Assembly (NCBI GenBank): GCA_020848745.1 | Contig: JADLHM010000055.1 | Location: forward strand, 62,001-126,000 | Origin: Deltaproteobacteria bacterium | GTDB lineage: Bacteria > Desulfobacterota > Binatia > UTPRO1 | Direction of reading: 5' to 3' | Length of the DNA: 64,000 bases | Shown here: one piece after another, positions 27,539 through 28,034 of the stretch | Position numbering within the stretch: the first letter of the stretch is position 1 | Layout: each line of letters begins with the position of its first letter | The notes under the pieces: model-generated | Database searches by the model: none | Seen by the model: the letters and a program-made list of their open reading frames with translations, nothing else | What the model was told of the DNA's origin: nothing | Made by a program: the position numbers and the translations under genes

Positions 27539-27567
27539 TTGCGGTCGTCGGCGCCCTCCACTATAAG
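27539..27567 (+). promoter_or_regulatory. Promoter of the tRNA-Asn gene
   Basis: TTGCGG (27539-27544), exactly 17 bp, then TATAAG (27562-27567); predicted start at about 27574, giving a leader of about 20 nt before the tRNA. Both spacing and -10 are close to sigma70 consensus. Confidence 0.6.
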
Positions 27568-27594: not shown

Positions 27595-27984
27595 TCCCCG
27601 GTAGCTCAGTTGGTAGAGCGTTCGGCTGTAGAAATGCAGCCTCGTCGGGAAACCGGCGAGTGAAAAGCGGGTGAATTCAGGGAAGCCTAAGTGCGAAGCG
27701 AGGCAGGCTGCCGAGAAGCGGCCGGAAGCGACGGAGCCGACGGTCGGTTGTCGGCAGCCTGCCGGGCATACGGGAACCCTGAGCCAAGCCTCCCAATGAC
27801 CCGGTCGCGAGACCGGCAGGGTGGGGGGAAGGTGCAGAGACTAGGGAGTGACGAAAGAATAACCTCCCCACGAGCGCCCGCCACCTACGTCCGTTGGATA
27901 CGGTGATGAGATAGTCCACGCCCGCCGGAAACGGCGGGACGACGTGTAACCGAATGGTCGCTGGTTCGAGTCCGGCCCGGGGAG
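27595..27984 (+). tRNA. tRNA-Asn(GTT) interrupted by a group I intron
   Basis: Exon 1 is 27595-27629 and exon 2 is 27947-27984; joined they give a 73-nt tRNA. The acceptor TCCCCGG (27595-27601) pairs with CCGGGGA (27977-27983), discriminator G. Standard D-arm, anticodon stem TTCGG/CCGAA, loop CTGTTAA with anticodon GTT. The variable loop is short. The T-arm is GCTGG-TTCGAGT-CCGGC. CCA is not encoded. If the intron is ignored the loop reads CTGTA and the gene can be mistaken for tRNA-Tyr or missed. The intron lies between anticodon positions 35 and 36. It is the only Asn tRNA in the window; whether another copy exists is unknown. Confidence 0.93.
27630..27946 (+). ncRNA. Group I self-splicing intron, 317 nt, no ORF
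   Basis: P1: exon GGCTGT (27624-27629) pairs with guide GCAGCC (27636-27641), with the hallmark U.G at the 5' splice site. P2 is CTCGTCGG/CCGGCGAG with a GAAA loop (27641-27660). P element near 27673-27687 (AATTCAGGGAAGCC); Q near 27775-27785 (AACCCTGAGCC); P4 pairs 27677-27682 with 27777-27782. P5 is a 13-bp stem, 27702-27714 with 27751-27763. R near 27831-27844 (GTGCAGAGACTAG) and S near 27910-27919 (GATAGTCC) form P7 through GACTA/TAGTC. P8 is GGGAG/CTCCC. P9 is CCCGCCG-GAAA-CGGCGGG (27921-27938). The terminal G at 27946 is the omega-G. No homing endonuclease is present. Confidence 0.93.
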
Positions 27985-27987
27985 TTC

Positions 27988-28034
27988 GAGAGCGGGTCGC
28001 TGGAGCGTTGCTCCGGCGGCCCGTTCTCTTTTTT
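27988..28034 (+). terminator. Intrinsic terminator of the tRNA-Asn gene
   Basis: A 19-bp stem (27988-28006 with 28010-28028, a few G.U pairs) and 3-nt loop are followed directly by six T (28029-28034). It begins 3 nt after the tRNA end. It is the clearest T-tract terminator in the window. Confidence 0.88.

Follow-up and report, generated by a model that had tools for sequence, protein, structure and literature searches.

A group I intron within the anticodon of tRNA-Asn(GUU) in a Deltaproteobacteria bacterium and the occupation of the same site in other phyla

How are asparagine codons decoded in a bacterium whose tRNA-Asn gene is interrupted within the anticodon itself? This question was raised by a locus in the draft genome of a Deltaproteobacteria bacterium, from which a stretch of 64,000 nucleotides (the window) was analyzed; all features given below lie on its forward strand. 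A tRNA-Asn(GUU) gene at 27595–27984 is split by a group I intron that separates the anticodon bases U35 and U36. The 5′ exon (27595–27629) comprises 35 nt, corresponding to tRNA positions 1–35, and ends in ...CUGU; the intron (27630–27946) is 317 nt long; and the 3′ exon (27947–27984) supplies the remaining 38 nt, positions 36–73, with the CCA not encoded. Once joined, the exons fold into a standard cloverleaf with a GUU anticodon, which ARAGORN identified as tRNA-Asn(gtt); with introns allowed, it gave the same call for the unspliced gene and reported an intron (36,317). The original prediction that the exon halves rejoin into a standard tRNA-Asn, with the insertion after anticodon position 35, was borne out, and the boundaries are exact to the base. 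It had also expected simple tRNA scans to miss the gene, and this was the case: ARAGORN in its default mode, without introns, did not report it, and the plain tRNA model gave 18.2 bits, which is under the cut-off.

The insert at 27630–27946 was confirmed as a group I intron. The Rfam group I covariance model (RF00028), proposed earlier as a check, matched positions 27620–27938 with 60.7 bits (cut-off 50; E = 6e-13 against all of Rfam), and the match spanned the full model (1–253 of 253) and with it the whole core. Every helix from P1 to P9 is paired, and all 67 intron pairs that were written out form in the window. The fold had a z-score of −5.5, which no shuffle out of 100 equaled, and P2, P3, P4, P5, P6, P7.1, P8, P9.0, and P9 all appeared in the minimum-energy structure computed without constraints.

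Three hallmarks named in the original prediction, a 6-bp P1 with U·G at the splice site, a P7 and a terminal G, were all found. P1 (27624–27641) pairs 27624–27629 (GGCUGU) with 27636–27641 (GCAGCC), all six pairs form, and the splice-site pair U27629·G27636 is U·G in 23 of 23 homologues. P7 (27839–27916) consists of 5 bp between 27839–27843 and 27912–27916 (GACUA/UAGUC) and is invariant in the same 23 homologues, and the 3′-terminal omega-G at 27946 is G in all 23 introns of the alignment. The P2 hairpin (27642–27659) has a GAAA loop, and all seven of its pairs show double-sided changes. P3 (27667–27881) joins 27667–27673 to 27875–27881, with 100% of the cells paired and two pairs changed on both sides. 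P4 (27677–27682 with 27777–27782) and P5 (27686–27694 with 27766–27773) were recovered by both pair counts and the minimum-energy fold. A long and very stable extension of the P5 hairpin (27695–27765) is restricted to the window's genus; it is missing from the sister genera and from G001–G003, and it is shorter or missing in the introns of family f4. P6 and P6a occupy 27784–27832, and P6a is 100% paired with double-sided changes in five of its six pairs. Between P7 and P3 lies a 25-nt P7.1 hairpin (27844–27868), which appears in the minimum-energy fold and shows a double-sided change in relatives; an extra hairpin stands at this place in most tRNA-Asn introns. The inner helix of P8 (27882–27905) changes from UA/CG to GC/GC between families. 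P9.0 (27918–27920 with 27943–27945) contains a pair that is G-C in family f1 and C-G in family f4, and P9 (27921–27938), seen from pair counts, carries a second GAAA loop.

The structure is also supported by strong covariation in relatives. When the intron of the window was aligned with ten relatives from its class, the paired cells amounted to 99.6% and 10 pairs had changed on both sides. With more distant tRNA-Asn introns added, to give an alignment of 23, 94.8% of the cells in the 67 pairs were standard-paired, and slid controls of this alignment reached only 35–48%. Double-sided changes were present in 36 of the 67 pairs, a number attained by none of 500 shuffles. P1 and P7 have no covariation support of their own because both barely vary. 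The tRNA stems covary too, including the anticodon stem whose halves flank the intron. Chance or artefact was ruled out by the Rfam score, the covariation and the recurrence of the intron in other genomes.

The gene had been predicted to possess its own promoter and a T-tract terminator. The terminator is present as a 19-bp hairpin followed by TTTTTT at 27988–28034. For the promoter, the expectation was met in part: a promoter-like TTGCGG-N17-TATAAG, read from the sequence, is visible upstream of the gene at 27539–27567, and both boxes and their 17-nt spacing recur in a congener (G004), but nothing for this gene passed a consensus sigma-70 promoter scan.

The genome comprises 4.88 Mb in 155 contigs and is 99.5% complete. 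The tRNA model gave 49 matches, among which ARAGORN called 43 tRNAs, and no other tRNA-Asn gene was found among these matches and calls in the whole draft assembly. The last of the tRNA-model matches is the 5′ part of the intron-bearing tRNA-Asn, and the intron gene has a single match in its own genome. The search for a second tRNA-Asn, suggested with the original prediction, found none, so this gene is apparently the sole asparagine tRNA. Within the window's order, each of the six genomes has the intron at this site, and an intact tRNA-Asn was detected in none of them. Among 148 genomes of the class, 18 had the intron only, 110 the intact gene only, one both and 19 neither, a nearly mutually exclusive distribution (Fisher p = 5e-12). 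An intact tRNA-Asn was also present in only three of 40 further intron-bearing public genomes. Because no other tRNA-Asn gene was found, and because the intron and the intact gene almost exclude each other in the class, splicing is probably required to decode all AAU and AAC codons.

It could be objected that the gene is dead or decaying and that asparagine codons are read by another tRNA-Asn absent from the assembly. Such a gene could have been missed because the draft is divided into 155 contigs and is also without some tRNAs among the 43 called, e.g., Ile-GAT and Ala-TGC, and the intron and intact-gene patterns do occur together in a few genomes (G068, G531, G535, and G554). However, a missing second gene is unlikely because it would have to be absent from all six genomes of the order. 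Moreover, both exons are perfect, their stems covary and the intron core is conserved across the family, so that a dead copy is hardly credible. A separate observation concerns G531 (Elusimicrobia), in which 24 tRNA genes, including an intact tRNA-Asn, are packed into ~2.2 kb (L197), and the same genome also has an intron-bearing tRNA-Asn.

In group I splicing, a guanosine breaks the strand in P1 at the 5′ splice site, and the 3′ hydroxyl released there attacks after the terminal G of the intron. At this locus, the transcript would be a pre-tRNA whose anticodon loop contains the group I ribozyme of 317 nt. The GGCUGU of the 5′ exon would pair with the internal guide GCAGCC, exogenous guanosine would attack after U35, and the freed 3′ hydroxyl of U35 would then attack after the terminal G, which would join the exons into tRNA-Asn(GUU). 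The unspliced RNA would have no readable anticodon loop, and it is likely that no decoding could take place before splicing. Like the original prediction, we infer RNA-only splicing. Alternatively, the core may be intact while splicing in the cell needs a host protein, such as a cofactor of the synthetase or helicase type. Protein-aided splicing occurs in some group I introns of fungal mitochondria, with CYT-18 and CYT-19 (PMC3984707), and here the P7.1 hairpin or the P5 extension of the genus could provide binding or scaffold elements. Against this, the fold is very stable and high in GC, all of the core helices are present, and GAAA loops close both P2 and P9. In addition, bacterial tRNA introns studied to date self-splice in vitro, to our knowledge, and we regard dependence on a cofactor as improbable.

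The insertion had been described as a clean and different integration point. The site between positions 35 and 36 is indeed exact, but it is not peculiar to this genome. A 3′-junction pattern applied to GTDB contigs returned at least 118 stretches, of which those preceded by a matching 5′ exon able to complete the acceptor and anticodon stems were kept; roughly half of the stretches listed had no such exon, were mostly ordinary tRNAs, and were dropped. With hits from the class and phylum added, at least 75 different tRNA-Asn(GUU) genes carried a group I intron at precisely this site (GU/U, the slash marking the insertion), and Rfam confirmed nearly all of those scanned. Their hosts, among the matches listed, belong to about twelve phylum-level groups and also include two Pacearchaeota (Archaea). 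By record title, they are Patescibacteria (many lineages), Cyanobacteria (including L054 and L119), Nitrospira, Omnitrophota, Elusimicrobia, Aminicenantes, Rokubacteria, Gemmatales, Betaproteobacteria, Deltaproteobacteria, Bacteroidetes, Ignavibacteria, and the two Pacearchaeota. Such titles can be wrong for metagenome bins, as for L144 (CAMBFS010000088.1), titled Klebsiella pneumoniae. The intron gene of L144 matches that of G016, a member of the window's class, and its title looks wrong. The occupation of the GU/U site in many phyla ruled out that the insertion is unique to this genome, and the proposed search of related genomes recovered it throughout the order and well beyond.

The two Pacearchaeota introns also interrupt tRNA-Asn(GUU) at GU/U (L055:1884–2214, 83.1 bits; L058:894–1389, 78.8 bits). 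The archaeal intron-bearing tRNA-Asn starts with G1, and the bacterial ones all start with U1. Both loci are adjoined by an archaeal KH-protein gene, for which arCOG04150 was the best match, under its cut-off; further neighbors are aIF2-beta in L055 and TYW3 in L058. Because of G1 in place of U1 and of these neighbor genes, the loci are not obvious bacterial contamination. These archaeal introns are rare; a slightly narrower pattern detected one in 279 genomes of their phylum.

The intron of the window was predicted to encode no endonuclease, and neither an HNH frame nor any other endonuclease frame was found in it; the longest stop-free forward stretch through the gene is 71 codons. Most tRNA-Asn introns longer than about 500 nt hold an open frame for an HNH protein of ~110 aa, as in L172, L174, L182, L132, L162, and other introns above this size. 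These frames match phage HNH families (phrog_2255, E = 3e-31) and had no Pfam or NCBIfam match at E = 0.001. An HNH endonuclease, still present in relatives, may have spread introns that use GU/U of tRNA-Asn as a homing site, and the intron of the window would be an endonuclease-free member of this widespread set that was inherited vertically in its order.

A trace of another event was observed in the congener G004, where a 108-nt copy of the 3′ end of the intron and most of the 3′ exon (L191:1472–1579; G004:C32) lies ~2.4 kb downstream of the intact intron-bearing gene. A second intron-bearing gene in this genome was rejected, as the copy is a 3′-end fragment only. By eye, the DNA between the gene and the copy seems to contain fragments of an IS3-type transposase and an Mrr-type nuclease, and because of this content it is suggested that an element integrated at this tRNA in G004.

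The relationships among the tRNA-Asn introns were examined in a tree of about 210 alignable columns, which was poorly resolved. The introns of the window's family and of family f4 formed one clade (support 100/100). Those of two other families in the class grouped near those of Nitrospira, Rokubacteria and Elusimicrobia, and forcing all class members into one clade was weakly rejected (p-AU 0.037). Weak rejection of class monophyly and placement near other phyla fit repeated acquisition through homing, after which the intron may have been passed on vertically within the window's order. The tRNA-Asn introns branched separately from the tRNA-Leu (L223, L225, and L226) and tRNA-Ile (L222) introns found in the class; the support was 99, from four outgroup rows only.

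The interval between the P7 strands varies in these introns. No extra hairpin is found there in L055, L074, and L093; one is found in the window, Nitrospira and cyanobacteria; and two are found in many Patescibacteria. Because the arrangement ranges from zero to two hairpins, the tRNA-Asn introns may not all be of one family. The introns of different phyla could even be independent, unrelated insertions that converged on an attractive site, an explanation to which the differing P7 interval and the poorly resolved tree lend something. It is opposed by the separation of all of them from the tRNA-Leu and tRNA-Ile introns of the class, with the four outgroup rows noted above, and by the same HNH type in introns of several branches, and we consider convergence possible but rather unlikely. 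We lean instead towards GU/U of tRNA-Asn as an undescribed homing site that crosses domains. A distinct, mostly P7.1-bearing intron family with its own HNH would have invaded it repeatedly in Bacteria, entered Archaea, and often become fixed in the only tRNA-Asn, making the decoding of two codons ribozyme-dependent.

Bacterial tRNA group I introns are usually classed as IC3, a subgroup without P7.1/P7.2 between P7 and P3; a P7.1 at this place is a mark of subgroup IA and not of IC3. The 25-nt P7.1 hairpin of the window's intron departs from IC3, and a classical IC3 intron is disfavored by this hairpin and by the tree. P7.1 is one IA trait, and the intron may be of subgroup IA or IC.

The closest known counterparts are the introns of tRNA-Leu(UAA), tRNA-fMet and tRNA-Ile2(CAU) in cyanobacteria and proteobacteria, which likewise lie in the anticodon loop of a tRNA after a U, are small and mostly endonuclease-free, and share the P1–P9 core; intron-bearing fMet and Ile2 tRNAs are also missed by tRNAscan-SE (PMC8450103). 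They differ from the introns described here, in which the host is tRNA-Asn(GUU), the site is 35/36 within the anticodon, and a P7.1 is added. Group I introns in tmRNA are similarly small, mostly endonuclease-free, spread over many phyla in a tRNA-like host and hard for standard annotation, but they are located in the T-loop of tmRNA and not in the anticodon of tRNA-Asn (PMC11915505). The archaeal group I introns reported so far have Pacearchaeota among their hosts, but all 39 are in rRNA, whereas the two Pacearchaeota introns found here are in tRNA-Asn (PMC6125680). Other group I elements were noticed in the window's class. In L222 and L229 (G015 and G016), a tRNA-Ile(CAU) intron apparently follows U33 and precedes C34, immediately 5′ to the anticodon, and a sub-threshold group I match of 42 bits was seen in L228:1501–1793 (G137).

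Among tRNAs, previous studies reported group I introns for Leu, fMet and Ile2 (PMC8450103, PMC4033280), and one paper claims cyanobacterial ones in Arg, Gly and Lys. A 2014 review confined the bacterial ones to cyanobacteria, alpha- and beta-proteobacteria, with none in archaea (PMC4033280), and chloroplast tRNA-Asn was stated to be without group I introns. The original prediction knew of no intron of this kind in Asn(GUU), and in the open-access literature nothing was found that describes a group I intron in a bacterial or archaeal tRNA-Asn, although an earlier note elsewhere is possible. The intron is real; elements of this kind are known, but tRNA-Asn and this position within it are apparently undescribed as their host. 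On the homing-site reading favored above, the Pacearchaeota cases would be the first group I introns in an archaeal tRNA, as judged from the open-access literature.

How the intron is built, where it sits, how it is distributed, and that no second tRNA-Asn is present in the assemblies are direct observations; that it splices itself, that splicing is essential, that an endonuclease gene was lost, and that these introns home are what we infer from them. Taken as a whole, the locus is very probably a sole tRNA-Asn spliced by its own ribozyme, which would be an endonuclease-free member of a widespread homing set. A single site in tRNA-Asn is occupied by introns in about twelve phylum-level groups, two archaeal genomes included, and the hosts are usually without a detected intact tRNA-Asn gene. 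Standard tRNA callers lose the gene, and such genomes can therefore seem to be without an asparagine tRNA. The site offers a clean system for studying the fixation of ribozymes in essential genes and their passage between domains.
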